From positions 1 to 32,397 of the IMG/VR virus record IMGVR_UViG_3300014496_000427: 32,397 bases of DNA; one strand, given 5' to 3'. Of the stretch, positions 2,879 through 31,177 are shown in pieces (the first letter of the stretch is position 1; every line of letters begins with the position of its first letter). This stretch comes from a virus. The notes beneath the pieces were generated by a model, which worked only from the letters and a program-made list of their open reading frames with translations, was not told the DNA's origin and searched no databases. Made by a program: the position numbers and the translations under genes.

Positions 2879-3310
2879 ATGGCAACAATAAAAGACTGTT
2901 ATACTTTAGAATTATATGAAGAAGAAAAACAATTAATTTTAAATGCACTTGAAAATCACGCTACACATTTAAATTATAAATTAGCAGGTATTTACTCAGC
3001 CACAACAAAAGCAATCAAAAATATTTATGATTCAGAAGTGAAATCAAAAAATCGTTATTATGCTGGATTAACTAAAAGCAATGTTTATGATTTACCAAGA
3101 ACATCCTTCTCATCTCGAATAAAAGCAGAAAAATATATTAATCATTATTTTCAGAATTTGGCCGAAATAGAAATCATTAAACTTGAAGAAATAGAAAGCG
3201 AAATCAGAAAATTAATAAGATATATAAGAAAAATTAAAGTAAATGAAATTATAAAAGCATCAAAAGAAAATTATCAGAAAATTCCACATTCACCAAATAC
3301 AATAACATAA
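2879..3310 (+). CDS. Conserved-looking helical hypothetical protein
   Basis: 143 residues, mostly helical, lysine-rich towards the end and without membrane segments or cysteine pairs (one Cys near the N-terminus). The C-terminal half (EIIKLEEIESEIRKLIRYI) is strongly amphipathic. It sits 27 bases upstream of 3338 and probably forms a two-gene unit with it, driven from the repeated element at 2841. I do not recognise the family. Confidence 0.6.
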   Translation: MATIKDCYTLELYEEEKQLILNALENHATHLNYKLAGIYSATTKAIKNIYDSEVKSKNRYYAGLTKSNVYDLPRTSFSSRIKAEKYINHYFQNLAEIEIIKLEEIESEIRKLIRYIRKIKVNEIIKASKENYQKIPHSPNTIT

Positions 3311-3337
3311 ATCAGAATTTAAAATATAATTTATAAA

Positions 3338-3628
3338 ATGGCATTATTTGCAGTTATAAGTTTCACAGAATCAAACAAACAAATTATTATAGATTGCATT
3401 AAAAATGTTTTAAAATCTGAATATGCTGTCTATAAAGATGTAGTTTTATTTTCCGCACCCGAAACTCAAAATGTTATAACAAAAATGTTCGACGATGCTT
3501 TGATTAAAAAAATTGATTTCATGGTAATTTCAATAAATCATATATCGGGTAGAGTTGATGATAATATTACAGAATTTGTAAAGAAACAAAAAAAAGTTCA
3601 AGTAATACCAGATGAAAACAAAAATTAG
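3338..3628 (+). CDS. Small ferredoxin-fold-like protein, possibly Cas2/SinR-like
   Basis: 96 residues with a predicted beta-alpha-beta-alpha-beta-alpha pattern: strand LFAVISF (3-9), helix 12-26, strand DVVLFSA, helix NVITKMFDDAL, strand DFMVISINH, then SGRVDDNITEFV. This layout recalls the ferredoxin-like fold of Cas2 and of small proteins annotated SinR/Cas2-like, some of which accompany defence or toxin genes. The resemblance is to fold pattern only; no Cas1 or CRISPR array is present. It is likely co-transcribed with 2879-3310. Function uncertain. Confidence 0.55.
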   Translation: MALFAVISFTESNKQIIIDCIKNVLKSEYAVYKDVVLFSAPETQNVITKMFDDALIKKIDFMVISINHISGRVDDNITEFVKKQKKVQVIPDENKN

Positions 3629-3708
3629 ATTATAAAAGAACCCCGTTGATTAAAATATATATACCCATTTAAGAATTTCCAGTGGAAGTGTGGGATTCTG
3701 ACCTCTAT

Positions 3709-3748
3709 AATCATTCCTTTTTTATTTCTGTAATTTTCAATAAATTAT
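3709..3748 (+). promoter_or_regulatory. Repeated upstream element, copy 3
   Basis: 40 bases matching 2402-2441 at 37 positions. The core differs from copy 1 at one base (GTAATTTTCAATAAATTAT, 3730-3748) and lies 24 bases before the start codon at 3772, the same spacing as copy 1. Confidence 0.6.
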
Positions 3749-3771
3749 GACTTAAATTAATTCAAAATATC

Positions 3772-4119
3772 ATGAATAACAAAATAATTTGTGAATTTTC
3801 TTTTGAAGACCTATCTTTATTAAAAAATTTGTCTGAAAAGTATGAGTTGGAGAAGATATTGGAAATGAAAAAAGAAAATAAAAACACATATGAGAATCAA
3901 TTAGTATTAAAATATTTCCAAAAAACATCTATGTATATGATATCTGTTCTTCAAAATCCAACATATAATAAAAATAATAATATTTTAATTGAATTTGAAA
4001 GTTTGCAATTAGCATTTTTTGTTGGAAGTTTAGGAAAAGAAAAAGAAAAATTATATAAACCTGAAAAAATAGAATATTACCAGAATCTAATTGATTATAT
4101 TAATAAAATGAATAATTAA
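3772..4119 (+). CDS. Small hypothetical protein
   Basis: 115 residues: a short N-terminal strand (KIICEFSF), a Lys/Glu-rich helical middle and a hydrophobic patch (LQLAFFVGSL) followed by a charged helical tail. No motif recognised. It has its own copy of the 40-base upstream element and ends 20 bases before 4140, so it probably forms a pair with the HEPN-like gene; small antitoxin-like partners of HEPN proteins are common, which makes an antitoxin role a hypothesis. Confidence 0.6.
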   Translation: MNNKIICEFSFEDLSLLKNLSEKYELEKILEMKKENKNTYENQLVLKYFQKTSMYMISVLQNPTYNKNNNILIEFESLQLAFFVGSLGKEKEKLYKPEKIEYYQNLIDYINKMNN

Positions 4120-4139
4120 ATGAATTAATAAATATTTCA

Positions 4140-4757
4140 ATGAAATTATCAGTTGAAAATAAAAAATATAGAACAAATATACTAGAAAATGATTTAAATG
4201 ACCGTAGCAACTTTCCTGATTTAGGGTTCGCAAAAAAACTTGACAAAATAGAAGATGAAGCAGAAATTTTGTTTAACAAAAATACTATTGAAGGCTATAT
4301 TTCTTCTATGATTATATACCACCAATTAATGGATGAACTAATTAAGATGTTAATAAATTGTTCTCGTTATTATATACAATTAAGATTATTTCCTTATAAA
4401 ATAAATAAACGTATTACAAAAAGGAAATTAACTAAAAATTTGCTTGAAGAATTAACAAATTTATTATTGAATCCTAAAATAGAATTATTTATAAAAAAAT
4501 GTTATGAATTAAATGAACTAAGAAATAAAACTGTGCATAGATTAATAACAGTTAAATCAGTCAAATCAACCCTTGTTCAATGTAAAAAAGTAAAAAGATT
4601 ATTCAAAGAAATTTTCAAATTGTTTGAAAAAATATTTCATGAAATTCTAATTTCTATGCAAAATAAAGAATATTTTAAAAACGTAGAAAAATCTTTAGGA
4701 ATTGATTCTATAAAAATTGAAAAATTATTGTTGGAATTTAAAAATCAACAGCAATAA
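4140..4757 (+). CDS. HEPN-like protein, possible RNase toxin
   Basis: 205 residues, all helical. A long helix bundle (EGYISSMIIYHQLMDELIKML) is followed by ELNELRNKTVHRL near residues 122-134, in which R-N-x3-H fits the Rx4-6H signature of HEPN domains, and then further helices. HEPN proteins are frequently metal-independent RNases in toxin-antitoxin and abortive-infection systems; others only bind nucleotides or RNA. It is the last gene of the block, 20 bases after 3772-4119, its likely partner. Lacking a search, this could also be a C-terminal-HEPN fragment or a non-catalytic relative. Confidence 0.55.
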   Translation: MKLSVENKKYRTNILENDLNDRSNFPDLGFAKKLDKIEDEAEILFNKNTIEGYISSMIIYHQLMDELIKMLINCSRYYIQLRLFPYKINKRITKRKLTKNLLEELTNLLLNPKIELFIKKCYELNELRNKTVHRLITVKSVKSTLVQCKKVKRLFKEIFKLFEKIFHEILISMQNKEYFKNVEKSLGIDSIKIEKLLLEFKNQQQ

Positions 4758-26304: not shown

Positions 26305-27603
26305 TTATAAATGCCTTTCTTTAAATGGTATGAAATCCTGAGAAATTGGCACTTCAATTTTCTTATTGTTTCTATTTGTTTTCCATTCTTCTTCATATTC
26401 GTCAATATGATTAATAACGTATAGCCACCCTTCTTCTTCAGTTGGATTATTATTTATTCTATAATATTCACCAAATTTTTCCTGGCAAATTTCATAATTT
26501 ATTTTGTAATTCTTTTCTTTAATAATTTTATTTATTGCTTCTTTTACTTCTTTATATAATTTAACTGATTTATCATATGACGCTTTTCTTTTTTCAAAAG
26601 AATCCTGAAAAATCTCCTGAGGTGGATTAATTTTCTTTATTTCTTTTGAAAATGCAGGCTGGTGTTCTGGGAGTTCTGGGTGCTTTTGAACTGGATGAAC
26701 CACTGCCTTACCTTCTTCTTTTTTTGTTTCTTCTTTTATTTTTCCCTTCAAAAAAGATTCCTGAGGTGGGAAAGAATGCAAAACCTCTTCTTTTATAGGT
26801 GCAGGCTGGTGTTCTATTTGTTGTGTTTGTTCTTCAAATTTAAGAACTGGAGCCTTACCCTCGGGTGTATTATTTGTTTCTTCTTTTTCTTTTCCTTTTG
26901 AAAAAGATTCCTGAGATGATTGGGGATTTTCTACTTTTTCATTTCCAGATTCATTTAAAGAATTTGAAAGCGGACCACTCTCTGCTGTATTCTCTTGGGT
27001 ATTTTTTTGAGAATTATATGAAGTATTATATGTAGTATTATATGTATTAGATTTCTGATTTTTGCCTTCCCATTTCTGATTTTCAGAAGTGCATTTCTGA
27101 TTTTTGCCTTCCCATTTCTGATTTTTAACATTCATTTCTGATTTTAATAGTTCCATTTCTGATTTTTCACTATTGCATTTCTTAAAATCAGAAATGCACT
27201 TCTGAAAATCGGAAATGAATAAATTAGTTATCCTATAATGAATAACTGGATGTCCATAAGCCTGGCTTTTCATTCTTTCAATAAATCCTAATTTTTCTAA
27301 TTTAACTGCTACCAATTCAGTTTGATTTTTTGTTAAATGAATTTCAGATTCCCATTCAGAATAGCTTTTATAAATCCACCCGAAATATTTTCCTTTGTCA
27401 ATCCAATACATCAATTGAGAAAAGAATATAGATGCATTTATTAATGGAGTTATTTTTTTAGATTGAAAAAATGAAATTAAAATTTGAGGAATCACCAAGC
27501 ATTTTGAATCGCCAGTGGAGTTTTTGATTAATTCTTGCCATTCTTCTTTTGAAATTATTGCAGGATTTTCTCGAGCGGAAATTACTTCTTTGAGTGATTT
27601 CAT
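26305..27603 (-). CDS. Replication initiator-like winged-helix protein
   Basis: 432 residues. Residues 36-128 match the winged-helix domain of phage and plasmid replication proteins: ITPLINASIFFSQLMYWI, GWIYKSYSEWESEIHLTK, LEKLGFIERM. From 144 to 200 it carries 7-residue repeats (NQKWEGK/NQKCTSE) and 4-residue repeats (TYNT); residues 228-327 are two copies of a roughly 50-residue linker (QESFSKGKEKEET... HQPAPIKEE); the C-terminus (340-430) is a separate helical domain ending SQDFIPFKERHL, which may recruit a helicase, as the lambda O C-terminus recruits P. The repeats are also DNA repeats resembling an origin. ATG at 27603 lies in a duplicated start sequence. Confidence 0.7.
   Translation of the reverse strand: MKSLKEVISARENPAIISKEEWQELIKNSTGDSKCLVIPQILISFFQSKKITPLINASIFFSQLMYWIDKGKYFGWIYKSYSEWESEIHLTKNQTELVAVKLEKLGFIERMKSQAYGHPVIHYRITNLFISDFQKCISDFKKCNSEKSEMELLKSEMNVKNQKWEGKNQKCTSENQKWEGKNQKSNTYNTTYNTSYNSQKNTQENTAESGPLSNSLNESGNEKVENPQSSQESFSKGKEKEETNNTPEGKAPVLKFEEQTQQIEHQPAPIKEEVLHSFPPQESFLKGKIKEETKKEEGKAVVHPVQKHPELPEHQPAFSKEIKKINPPQEIFQDSFEKRKASYDKSVKLYKEVKEAINKIIKEKNYKINYEICQEKFGEYYRINNNPTEEEGWLYVINHIDEYEEEWKTNRNNKKIEVPISQDFIPFKERHL
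27010..27045. repeat. AT-rich 12-bp tandem repeats (possible unwinding element)
   Basis: AGAATTATATGA, AGTATTATATGT, AGTATTATATGT in tandem, 92% A+T, beginning 6 bases from the iteron-like array. Placement and composition resemble the AT-rich 12/13-mers where replication origins melt. In the protein they encode TYNT repeats. Confidence 0.55.
27051..27216. repeat. Iteron-like array inside the replication gene
   Basis: ATTTCTGATTTT occurs exactly six times in direct orientation at 27051, 27072, 27093, 27114, 27134 and 27155: spacings 21, 21, 21, 20 and 21 bases, i.e. two helical turns. The units at 27051 and 27093 are identical over 21 bases. It ends in an 8-bp inverted repeat (GCATTTCT at 27175 and AGAAATGC at 27190), with an inverted exact copy at 27184-27195 and a one-mismatch inverted copy at 27205-27216. 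Regular spacing with the AT-rich 12-mers alongside argues for a replication origin, as in lambda gene O. Confidence 0.65.
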
Positions 27604-27646
27604 ACTTGTCCTTTGTTATACAAAAGACGAAACCTGATTTTTTCAT
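27458..27646 (-). other. Possible leader peptide frame overlapping replication gene
   Basis: An ATG at 27646 preceded by AAAGGACAAG opens a 62-codon frame that overlaps the replication gene out of frame. Beyond the overlap it looks like a shadow. What is notable is its start context, a copy of the one used by the replication gene. If translated, it would be a regulatory leader, as in plasmid rep operons. Confidence 0.35.
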
Positions 27647-27657
27647 ACTTGTCCTTT
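27598..27657 (-). repeat. Duplicated translation-initiation sequence
   Basis: TTTCATACTTGTCCTTT is present at 27598-27614 and 27641-27657, exact copies 43 bases apart. On the minus strand each is AAAGGACAAGTATGAAA, i.e. Shine-Dalgarno plus ATG: one starts the replication gene, the other the upstream 62-codon frame. Confidence 0.7.
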
Positions 27658-27660
27658 TTT

Positions 27661-27713
27661 AATGCTGGTAGCCAGGACAGGGTATGAAGCCTTTTTAACT
27701 ACCAGCATTTTTT
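27661..27713 (+). terminator. Hairpin in rep leader; loop complementary to start sites
   Basis: AATGCTGGTAG (27661-27671) pairs exactly with CTACCAGCATT (27699-27709), followed on the + strand by TTTT: a Rho-independent terminator for + strand transcription, yet no + strand gene precedes it. The loop contains AGGACAGGGTATGAAG (27674-27689), almost the same as the rep start sequence AGGACAAGTATGAAA. In the leader mRNA that loop is therefore complementary to both start sites. It could be an antisense RNA terminator or an intramolecular translation switch. Confidence 0.6.
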
Positions 27714-28057: not shown

Positions 28058-29017
28058 TTATAAATTAATTAGCCAATTGCAAACTGAAAATAATTGTTCT
28101 TCACCATTTAAATTACAAGCGTTGTCTAATAAATTGTTCTCGAGTTGATTCCATATTTCCGATGCCATACTTATTGCGATTGCCGCACCAATAAAAAATG
28201 TTTTAGGATTTAAATTTTCTTCTCTAAAAGAAGTTTTAATTCTTGCTAATGCAGAAAATGCAGTTTTCCAATGTTCATCTGCGCCTGCAGGGTCAATTCC
28301 ACCTTTTAATTCACCTAAAGCAATGTATTTATTCCCTTCGATTGATTTCTTTTTTCCTTTTCCATTAATCCTATAGTCACCATTTATTAAAATTAAATCA
28401 ATATTTTTAGTAACGATTTTAAGAGTTGAATTAAATAAAAGAGTTCTGTTGTTTTCACCGTTTTTCCAATAAAATCCTTTTGTATGCGATTCAATATTTC
28501 TATCTTCTTCTTTTTTCTTTGCCCATATATATTTTTCTGAATCGAGCCAATAAAATTCAACATCATTTATATTCAAAGTTGCTACAAGTGCTCTCATAAA
28601 TTTTACTTCTGCTAAATACCCCACAACATTACGCATCTGTCCTCCAAGAGAATCTCCTTTTACTAACAAATAACGAAAAATTAGTTCATCAACAAAATAT
28701 TCTCCAGCAGGTTCAAGAAATTTTTCAATTAAATTATTTATTGCATTAACTTTGTCTTCATCTTTTAAATGTCCAATAGCTTTATCAGATAAGCCAGAAG
28801 CAGTTAACAAAGAATGATAAATCTCTTCCATTTTTAATAATTCAATGGGAGATTTTAACTTTGAAATTTTTGATTTAAGTGCTTTAGCTTCCAGAACCAT
28901 CGGTGTAGCCCTCTTATTTTTTTCTAATGCTTGCGCAACAAAACCAGCCCTTACCGATTCGTAAGTTGTTTCTAAATCTTTTGAAGAAGTGAGGTGACTT
29001 TTGTAAGTGTAATTCAT
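28058..29017 (-). CDS. AvaI/BsoBI-family type II restriction endonuclease
   Basis: 319 residues, strongly similar along its length to BsoBI/AvaI, which cut CYCGRG. Recognisable family segments: LEKNKRATP (32-40), FLEPAGEYFVDELIFRYLL (100-118), GDSLGGQMRN (121-130), ALGELKGGIDPAGADEHW (233-250) and FFIGAAI. The PD-(D/E)xK catalytic set is Asp207 (NIDLIL) with Glu236-Leu-Lys238. It forms a homodimer and needs Mg2+. Its ATG overlaps the methyltransferase stop (TAATG), so translation is coupled and follows protection. No controller protein gene is present. Confidence 0.9.
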   Translation of the reverse strand: MNYTYKSHLTSSKDLETTYESVRAGFVAQALEKNKRATPMVLEAKALKSKISKLKSPIELLKMEEIYHSLLTASGLSDKAIGHLKDEDKVNAINNLIEKFLEPAGEYFVDELIFRYLLVKGDSLGGQMRNVVGYLAEVKFMRALVATLNINDVEFYWLDSEKYIWAKKKEEDRNIESHTKGFYWKNGENNRTLLFNSTLKIVTKNIDLILINGDYRINGKGKKKSIEGNKYIALGELKGGIDPAGADEHWKTAFSALARIKTSFREENLNPKTFFIGAAIAISMASEIWNQLENNLLDNACNLNGEEQLFSVCNWLINL

Positions 29018-30429
29018 TATATTTTACTCCATTTATAAATGCATTTTCTTAATTCGTTCCTTCCGTGTTTTCCCATTTGTTGACTGCTATTTCCTTTTCC
29101 CTTTTCTAATATGTAAATATTGTCAACATTAAATCCGACTGTTTCTGCAAATTCACTTAATATTAAATCAACTGGAATAATTTCGCCTGCATACTGAACA
29201 TTATCATTTACATAATAGACAGTACCACCTCTTCTCAAAGTTCTATGCATTTCGTAAATCAAAAAAGCGTGTTCATAAAAATAATGTCGAATCATTTTAA
29301 TAATTCCATTATTATTTAATTTTTTTTCTTTCTTATATTCTTCTAATATCTCAAGAACTTCATTTAAGGCATTATTTTCAGTTCCCAATCTGTCCAGCAT
29401 ATTAAAAACATTTTCACCATATTGGGAAGTATAAAATTCTTTTAAATAAATTTTTCTACCATTTGATTCCACTGTGCTGGAAAGTAATGTTTGTCTTAAA
29501 TTTCTAATTTCAATTTCATCTATTCCCAAATACACAAGTTCTAAAGCATATATTCTTGAATAATCATACCTGTTTACATATGGAGGTGAAGTTATTACCA
29601 AATCAAAAAAATTATTCTCGAGGCTGGGCAATATATTAAAAACATTACCAGAAATTAATTCGGTGTTTATATTTTCATTCTGGAAATCAATTCTTGAAGT
29701 TTCCTGTATGATATCATTTCTGATTATATTTAATTTTTCATTTAACGCATCTTTAAAAGTTGGAATATGGCCTTTATTAAAATCGCTACTTCCTTTTTTT
29801 GCTCGGGCATCCCATCTTAAACATTGACCATCTTTTCTTGTGTAACTTATTTTTTCCAAAATAGAAAAACAGGCAAAATTTATAATTTGTTTAACATTTA
29901 AATCAATATTCAGATTGCTAAAATAATATAAATATTTATTCAAGGCATTTTCATTATTCCTTGAGAATGCTTTTTCCGTAATCTTTATATGTTTATAATT
30001 TGTTTCTGGGTTTGTTTCTAAATTATTATAATCAAGGTTAACAATATTTTCAATTGCATCATTTAATATTGTGATATTTTCCAGATTTTCAAAAGCCAAT
30101 CTTGTTTTAATTATAAATTCTCCAATTGGCAATAATTCAATTCCAACACTATTTATATTGTTTTCTTTTGATGTAAACAATGTTGTTCCAGACCCTGCGA
30201 ATGGGTCGAGAATATTATTTATATTATTCCTGCCAAATTCATCTATTAAATACTGAACTAATTTAGATGCAAAGCCTTCTTTATATGGAAACCAGTTATA
30301 TATAGGTGCTTTTTTATTATCTTGATTGCTTATAAGTTGTCTATTTAAATCAAAATTAGTTGTAATTATACTTTCATATTTATTTTCTAATTCGTCTCGA
30401 GATGTATTATGATTAATATTATTGGGCAT
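29017..30429 (-). CDS. CYCGRG DNA methyltransferase (N4-cytosine type)
   Basis: 470 residues. SAM-binding motif DPFAGSGTT (75-83) and catalytic TSPPY (280-284), the S/T-PPY form typical of N4-cytosine methyltransferases. Residues about 100-270 between the motifs probably carry target recognition. It is directly upstream of and overlaps the AvaI/BsoBI-type nuclease by one base, so it is its cognate protective enzyme, modifying CYCGRG. The target is inferred from the partner nuclease. The operon begins 88 bases after the membrane protein gene 30518-31177 and presumably has its own promoter there. Confidence 0.88.
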   Translation of the reverse strand: MPNNINHNTSRDELENKYESIITTNFDLNRQLISNQDNKKAPIYNWFPYKEGFASKLVQYLIDEFGRNNINNILDPFAGSGTTLFTSKENNINSVGIELLPIGEFIIKTRLAFENLENITILNDAIENIVNLDYNNLETNPETNYKHIKITEKAFSRNNENALNKYLYYFSNLNIDLNVKQIINFACFSILEKISYTRKDGQCLRWDARAKKGSSDFNKGHIPTFKDALNEKLNIIRNDIIQETSRIDFQNENINTELISGNVFNILPSLENNFFDLVITSPPYVNRYDYSRIYALELVYLGIDEIEIRNLRQTLLSSTVESNGRKIYLKEFYTSQYGENVFNMLDRLGTENNALNEVLEILEEYKKEKKLNNNGIIKMIRHYFYEHAFLIYEMHRTLRRGGTVYYVNDNVQYAGEIIPVDLILSEFAETVGFNVDNIYILEKGKGNSSQQMGKHGRNELRKCIYKWSKI

Positions 30430-30517: not shown

Positions 30518-31177
30518 CTATTCTACATTTCGTATATAGCTTTTTAAATATTCATTTGAACCTATCTGAGAATAATCCTTTTTTGAATTAGTATAAATAA
30601 AAAACAATACAAGAAAAACAATTTCAACTGTTTTAAGACTTATTATAATAATTATAGGAATATTCATATAAAAGCATAGGAAATTAAATCTACTGAATAG
30701 ATTATATAAATAATATAATAATATAATAATCCATACAATAAATATGAAAAAGCTTAACATCTGGTTAATTTTACTTACAGAAAATGAAAAATATTTTGGA
30801 TTTACAGGTTCAAAAGATTCACGTTTTATAAGAATTTTTCTATATAGAGGTTTGTCAAATAATTCCTTTTCAATTAAATCCACGTGATGTTCCCAATTCT
30901 CTTGCCAAAATTTGCTTCCTTTGTTAACTAAATACCAGGAAAATGAAAATACGATGCCAATCAAAATAATAATAAATTGAAAGAAATGGAGACCTTCTGA
31001 ATTTGAATATTTTTCAGTTAAAGAAATTCCATACCCTGCAAATGCAACACCTATAAAAGTCCAAAAATAAGTAGCTCTTTTCCAATATAAATTAATTTCC
31101 ATTTTCCGTTCTGCTATTGCTTTTTCGAATCTATATTCTTTACTTACAAATACTCTTTTTCCATTCTCATAAATCAT
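30518..31177 (-). CDS. RipA-like multi-pass membrane protein
   Basis: 219 residues with four membrane helices (about 34-52, 65-84, 139-160 and 173-195). After an N-terminal charged helix comes YWKRATYFWTFIGVAFAGYG, then FSWYLVNKGSKFWQENWEHH and later SVSKINQML. These segments resemble proteins annotated as RipA family octameric membrane proteins, which occur on mobile elements and whose function is unsettled. It lies upstream of the R-M operon on the same strand. A defence or superinfection-exclusion role is only a guess from its context. Confidence 0.6.
   Translation of the reverse strand: MIYENGKRVFVSKEYRFEKAIAERKMEINLYWKRATYFWTFIGVAFAGYGISLTEKYSNSEGLHFFQFIIILIGIVFSFSWYLVNKGSKFWQENWEHHVDLIEKELFDKPLYRKILIKRESFEPVNPKYFSFSVSKINQMLSFFIFIVWIIILLYYLYNLFSRFNFLCFYMNIPIIIIISLKTVEIVFLVLFFIYTNSKKDYSQIGSNEYLKSYIRNVE

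Follow-up and report, generated by a model that had tools for sequence, protein, structure and literature searches.

We place the replication origin of an uncultured phage within the gene for its own initiator, with a probability that we put at roughly 0.88 from sequence comparisons. The DNA analyzed (the window) is a 32,397-nucleotide IMG/VR phage record with integrase, terminase, portal, capsid, and protease genes. Read in the coding direction, the initiator gene contains a winged helix, two inverted iterons, six direct iterons, and 12-bp tandem units, in that order (Table 1). In the mechanism that we infer for binding, melting, helicase loading, and origin activity, the N-terminal winged helix would bind 12- to 13-bp iterons (AAAATCAGAAATG) within the DNA that encodes its own linker. 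The bound iterons (AAAATCAGAAATG) would be spaced by ~21 bp, equal to two helical turns, and the assembled initiator complex would strain and open the adjoining 12-mer element (27010 to 27045), to which the helicase might be delivered either by the C-terminal part of the initiator or by host proteins.

Table 1. Features of the initiator gene and its candidate origin (window coordinates).
Feature	Position	Strand	Details
Initiator gene, P0001	26305..27603	-	432 aa; PHROG 9773 "replication initiation O-like," E=2e-18
N-terminal winged-helix domain	27181..27549	-	Residues 19-141; AlphaFold2 mean pLDDT 90, pTM 0.81
Predicted recognition helix	27292..27330	-	Residues 92-104, K92-N93 at start; DSSP of model
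Inverted iteron, one mismatch	27205..27216	+	AAAATCGGAAAT
Inverted iteron, exact	27184..27195	+	Within imperfect palindrome 27176-27196
Iteron 1	27155..27166	-	Read as KSEM
Iteron 2	27134..27145	-	Read as KSEM
Iteron 3	27114..27125	-	Read as NQKW
Iteron 4	27093..27104	-	Read as NQKC
Iteron 5	27072..27083	-	Read as NQKW
Iteron 6	27051..27062	-	Read as NQKS
Three tandem 12-mers	27010..27045	-	ACATATAATACT x2 + TCATATAATTCT; variant of family element ACAGAGAYTACT; candidate opening/loading element
Three degenerate 12-mers	26974..27009	-	Same register; CAAAAAAATACC, CAAGAGAATACA, GCAGAGAGTGGT

The initiator and its iteron array

The PHROG 9773 match and the winged-helix model identify the gene product as a phage replication initiator with a DNA-binding domain; weaker matches to DnaD-like loader and replication initiation PHROGs were also obtained. 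The solved folds nearest to the winged-helix model were themselves winged helices and included those of the RepA_N Rep proteins (4pql, 5kbj, and 4pt7; Z 9.2 to 9.7) and the DnaD N-domain (2v79 and 2vn2; Z 8.6). The RepA_N comparison gave an rmsd of >5 Å and was tied with many other winged helices. By sequence, no RepA_N domain was detected, and Pfam returned only a weak winged-helix match (PF13601) below the cutoff. No helicase or loader gene was recognized among the neighboring genes scanned. Two further repeats were seen in and around the gene: a directly repeated sequence, TTTCATACTTGTCCTTT, that lies at the start codon and just upstream of it (27598 to 27618 and 27641 to 27661) and may represent an operator or a duplication of the start region, and imperfect repeats in the C-terminal linker, separated by ~150 bp (PPQESF..KGK..EET; 26608 to 26919).

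The array contains six exact direct copies of ATTTCTGATTTT, with the spacings given in the preliminary description, 21, 21, 21, 20, and 21 bp (21, 20, 21, 21, and 21 bp in the coding direction). Beyond the array, no exact copy of ATTTCTGATTTT occurs in the whole 32.4 kb. That description had also counted two inverted copies, only one of which is exact, and two frame-breaking spacings; the single 20-bp spacing holds among the full copies, but the 22-bp one involves a half copy (ATTTCTTAAAAT at 27177) that overlaps the exact inverted copy. Since a second IMG/VR contig (L007) carries an array identical to that of the window, the array is not an assembly artifact of one record.

Several observations indicate that the repeats are constrained as DNA. 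A single 12-mer sequence has three readings: as NQK (four copies in one phase), as KSEM (two copies in another phase), and as ISDF (the two inverted copies). Only 1 of 2,000 synonymous shuffles of the initiator gene produced at least seven copies of one 12-mer, and the probability of identical iteron DNA, given the peptides and the codon usage of the phage, is ~2.5e-6. The glutamine of all four NQK units is encoded by CAG, although CAG makes up 19% of the Gln codons phage-wide. We considered whether a hydrophilic heptad linker had simply been duplicated in tandem, with the repeat selected purely at the protein level and the DNA having no function. Four of the six direct copies do recur at 21 bp in a single codon phase, and linkers of this kind are often of low complexity, but the three readings of the 12-mer already contradict this explanation, the rare CAG in every NQK unit speaks against it, and the relatives described below make it highly improbable. 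The repeated peptide (NQKWEGK) is better regarded as a by-product of constraint on the DNA, as had been proposed, given the several readings of one 12-mer both here and in those relatives.

The same iteron in diverged initiators

We scanned IMG/VR for AAAATCAGAAAT-N(8-11)-AAAATCAGAAAT without using any protein information. Besides this phage, only three contigs (L235, L236, and L237) were recovered, and in all three the matches lie inside winged-helix replication initiators (PHROG 11233, E 3e-34 or better). These initiators resemble that of the window in the iteron 12-mer, in its position directly after the winged helix, and in a Lys-Asn pair at the recognition helix; they differ in that their repeats have a 22-bp spacing and fall in different codon phases (PKIRNRNIKNQK, PKSEMDSPKIRNEITQSQK, and EKSEIHLPKIRNGNTQSQK). 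They thus retain the DNA 12-mer yet encode KIRN, KSEM/KSEI, or QSQK/NQK, and these further frames add to the case against a protein-level repeat. Relatives that keep the peptide while losing the DNA repeats, which would have refuted the proposed origin, were not found, whereas these three contigs present the reverse.

The winged helices of the three contigs are far from that of the window (~23% identity; the best, L235, gave E=3e-4). Nevertheless, Lys-Asn stands at the start of the predicted recognition helix in the window and in all three contigs but in 0 of 83 other aligned initiators. This pairing of Lys-Asn with the iteron, seen in aligned sequences and a predicted helix, is what initiator-iteron specificity predicts, although, since the three initiators are 46 to 55% identical to each other, it may reflect a single event. 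In L236, the iterons are followed by a 12-bp tandem of its own (CCTATTAAATAT/CCTATTGAATAC/CCTATTGATAAT; reverse strand from ~4012), which differs in sequence from the family element described below.

DNA-level constraint on the linker extends to the wider family. In the part of the gene before the 12-mers, DNA repeats exceeded those of synonymous shuffles in 55 of 84 nonredundant initiators (P < 0.05), while in the other 29 they were not significant at the power of the test; the mean repeat score was 2.55, whereas shuffles averaged 1.46 and other regions of these genes 1.23. Setting aside inverted-copy offsets of 11 to 13 bp, the commonest spacing was 23 bp (63 cases), followed by 22 and 21 bp. 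Because most of these repeats stand at 22 to 23 bp, their codon phase changes: of the 64 genes holding at least three copies, 60 have them in multiple codon phases or orientations, which a purely protein-level repeat would not explain. Across these genes, the iterons vary between initiators while the layout stays constant. For a codon-level comparison at close range, the only relatives found belong to the same phage (L007, which is identical, and L008, whose repeats fall in an assembly gap), and there were none in 391 genomes of the suggested host class. The L008 sequence (3256 to 4506) lies on a contig of an Ignavibacteriae metagenome-assembled genome (MAG) and is identical to the phage described here except for that gap; this binned contig suggests that the host belongs to the Ignavibacteria.

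A tandem 12-mer element beside the iterons

Next to the array lie the three AT-rich 12-mers noted previously, of which one is divergent (AGAATTATATGA, 27010 to 27021) and two are identical (AGTATTATATGT, 27022 to 27033 and 27034 to 27045); a 5-base gap separates them from the first repeat, which therefore starts 6 bases on, as described. With a G+C content of 6/36, this stretch ranks within the least stable 0.6% of 36-bp windows. It had been taken for an AT-rich melting element, and it is indeed AT-rich and unstable, but it is more than a melting stretch, being a variant of a sequence-specific tandem element of the family.

Relatives were gathered in two separate ways, by the winged helix alone and by the DNA 12-mer alone. 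In 43 genes seeded by the winged helix, with G+C contents ranging from 29 to 64%, the 12-mer ACA-GAG-AYT-ACT is almost codon invariant. Its Thr1 codon is ACA in 109 of 109 cases (37 expected from the same genes), its Glu2 codon is GAG in 91 of 94 (26 expected), and its Thr4 codon is ACT in 69 (35 expected). The blind DNA scan found 80 loci, each with the 12-mer in the TE[IT]T frame and in an open reading frame that reads like a winged-helix initiator; all 8 loci that were picked for diversity and classified matched replication initiation families. That the frame never changes suggests a role for the peptide or for common descent as well. We rejected the idea that the 12-mer is merely the AT-richest stretch of each gene, since its median percentile in low-GC genes was 0.60; its sequence, and not low stability alone, must therefore matter.

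We built a 12-mer matrix from the relatives only, leaving the window out, and scored both strands of the window. The segments 27022 to 27045 and 27010 to 27045 ranked first in the whole window, and the runner-up (26974 to 26997) lies in the same 12-bp register. The window unit ACATATAATACT retains A1, C2, A3, A5, A7, T9, A10, C11, and T12 of the conserved family element and departs from it at G4, G6, and the variable position 8. The initiator therefore has at least two tandem 12-mers after its iteron linker, in the form of this variant; the exact ACAGAGAYTACT consensus is absent from the window. When the variant itself was used for a scan, the only matches were this phage and a low-complexity protein rich in threonine (L229).

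We tentatively propose, at somewhat less than even odds, that many phage winged-helix initiators share a previously undescribed tandem 12-mer origin element, ACA-GAG-AYT-ACT, which is constrained both as DNA and as the peptide TE[IT]T and would serve as a sequence-specific strand-opening and helicase-loading site, the window having an A+T-rich variant of it. The complement of the 12-mer, TAGTAAT (TnnTnnT), resembles the paired TnnT sites opposite DnaA-trios that make up the DnaD recognition element (PMC10201434); we regard this sequence resemblance as a lead only. The family 12-mer is absent from the origin regions of lambda, P22, TP901-1, and 80alpha, and a blastn search of phages with the 12-mer found no matches, for which the low-complexity filter may account. 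We found no description of a shared 12-mer in the literature searched, coverage of which was incomplete.

Since differing winged helices and C-terminal domains meet at the linker and the frame of the 12-mer is constant (90/90), the linker might instead be a recombination joint, with repeats and 12-mers kept because phages swap initiator modules there. That explanation leaves the initiator-specific iterons, their changing phase, and the pairing of Lys-Asn with the iteron unexplained, and we consider it very unlikely on its own, although the linker could serve as such a joint in addition to being an origin.

Comparison with known origins and neighboring genes

Origins inside initiator genes are already established in lambda (gene O; PMC5043065), Stx phages (PMC7466680), SPP1 (oriL in gene 38; PMC6316719), and RepA_N plasmids such as pSK41, in which the Rep boxes are central in rep and the linker is encoded by ori DNA (PMC5703833). 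As in lambda, whose iterons are annotated in O, the candidate origin is central in the initiator gene and directly follows the part that encodes the DNA-binding domain; the winged helix, iterons, and AT element also have the order and polarity seen in lambda O, the AT element lying downstream with respect to coding. However, the iterons are unrelated (ATCCCTCAAAA in lambda, AAAATCAGAAATG in the window), those of lambda being four 18- to 19-bp inverted-repeat iterons without a tandem 12-mer. The combination of lambda iteron and O-P gene pair that marks lambda O proper was not found in the window, with no P-like loader among the neighbors scanned. SPP1 gene 38 and 80alpha gp20 likewise specify replisome organizers that bind direct repeats in their own genes beside an AT-rich element (PMC6316719, PMC5499656), as predicted here for the window's initiator, and the annotated 80alpha origin occupies the same place in gp20 as the array does here; in contrast to the window, both phages have other repeat sequences and adjacent loader genes, and the 80alpha origin is without ACAGAGAYTACT 12-mers. 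The RepA_N initiators, whose winged-helix N-domain fold may be similar to that of the model, also have repeats central in the gene, but they belong to plasmids rather than phages, and a sequence relationship is not detectable.

Iterons often have regulatory roles too. The array could accordingly be a site at which the initiator or a regulator binds for autoregulation, copy control, or partition, while replication starts elsewhere; binding alone would be no proof of an origin, and the computed results do not separate the two readings. We nevertheless consider this alternative unlikely, given the adjoining 12-mer element and lambda-like order, the lack of any other exact repeat copy in the window, and the need for the equivalent 80alpha gene in cis, its deletion (gene 20) not being complemented in trans (PMC5499656). 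Four DnaA boxes (TTATNCACA) occur in the window, which is the chance level, and none is near the array. Cumulative GC skew, which had been suggested as a check, shows no turn at 27 kb and is uninformative here because nearly all genes are on one strand.

In the complete restriction-modification pair upstream of the initiator gene (28058 to 30429, minus strand), a full-length endonuclease of the BsoBI type (PF09194, E=2e-130) is accompanied by an N4/N6 methylase (PF01555); beside the pair is a member of the 8xMP octameric membrane protein family (30518 to 31177, minus strand; PF24838, E=2.6e-36). We counted 18 BsoBI sites (CYCGRG) in the window versus 2.4 expected (0 of 100 shuffles reached 18), with 12 of the 18 sites between 24.7 and 30.4 kb, so that the presumed own target of the endonuclease is enriched rather than avoided.

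Taken as the phage's origin, which the comparison with relatives supports well, as the preliminary description had it, the iteron array and its 12-mers place the probable start of replication of an uncultured phage and offer a DNA-only route to origins in metagenomic phages. The pairing between iteron and recognition helix in the window and the three diverged contigs is a starting point for reading initiator specificity from sequence, and a 12-mer common to phages of 29 to 64% GC suggests a shared opening or loading step at these origins.
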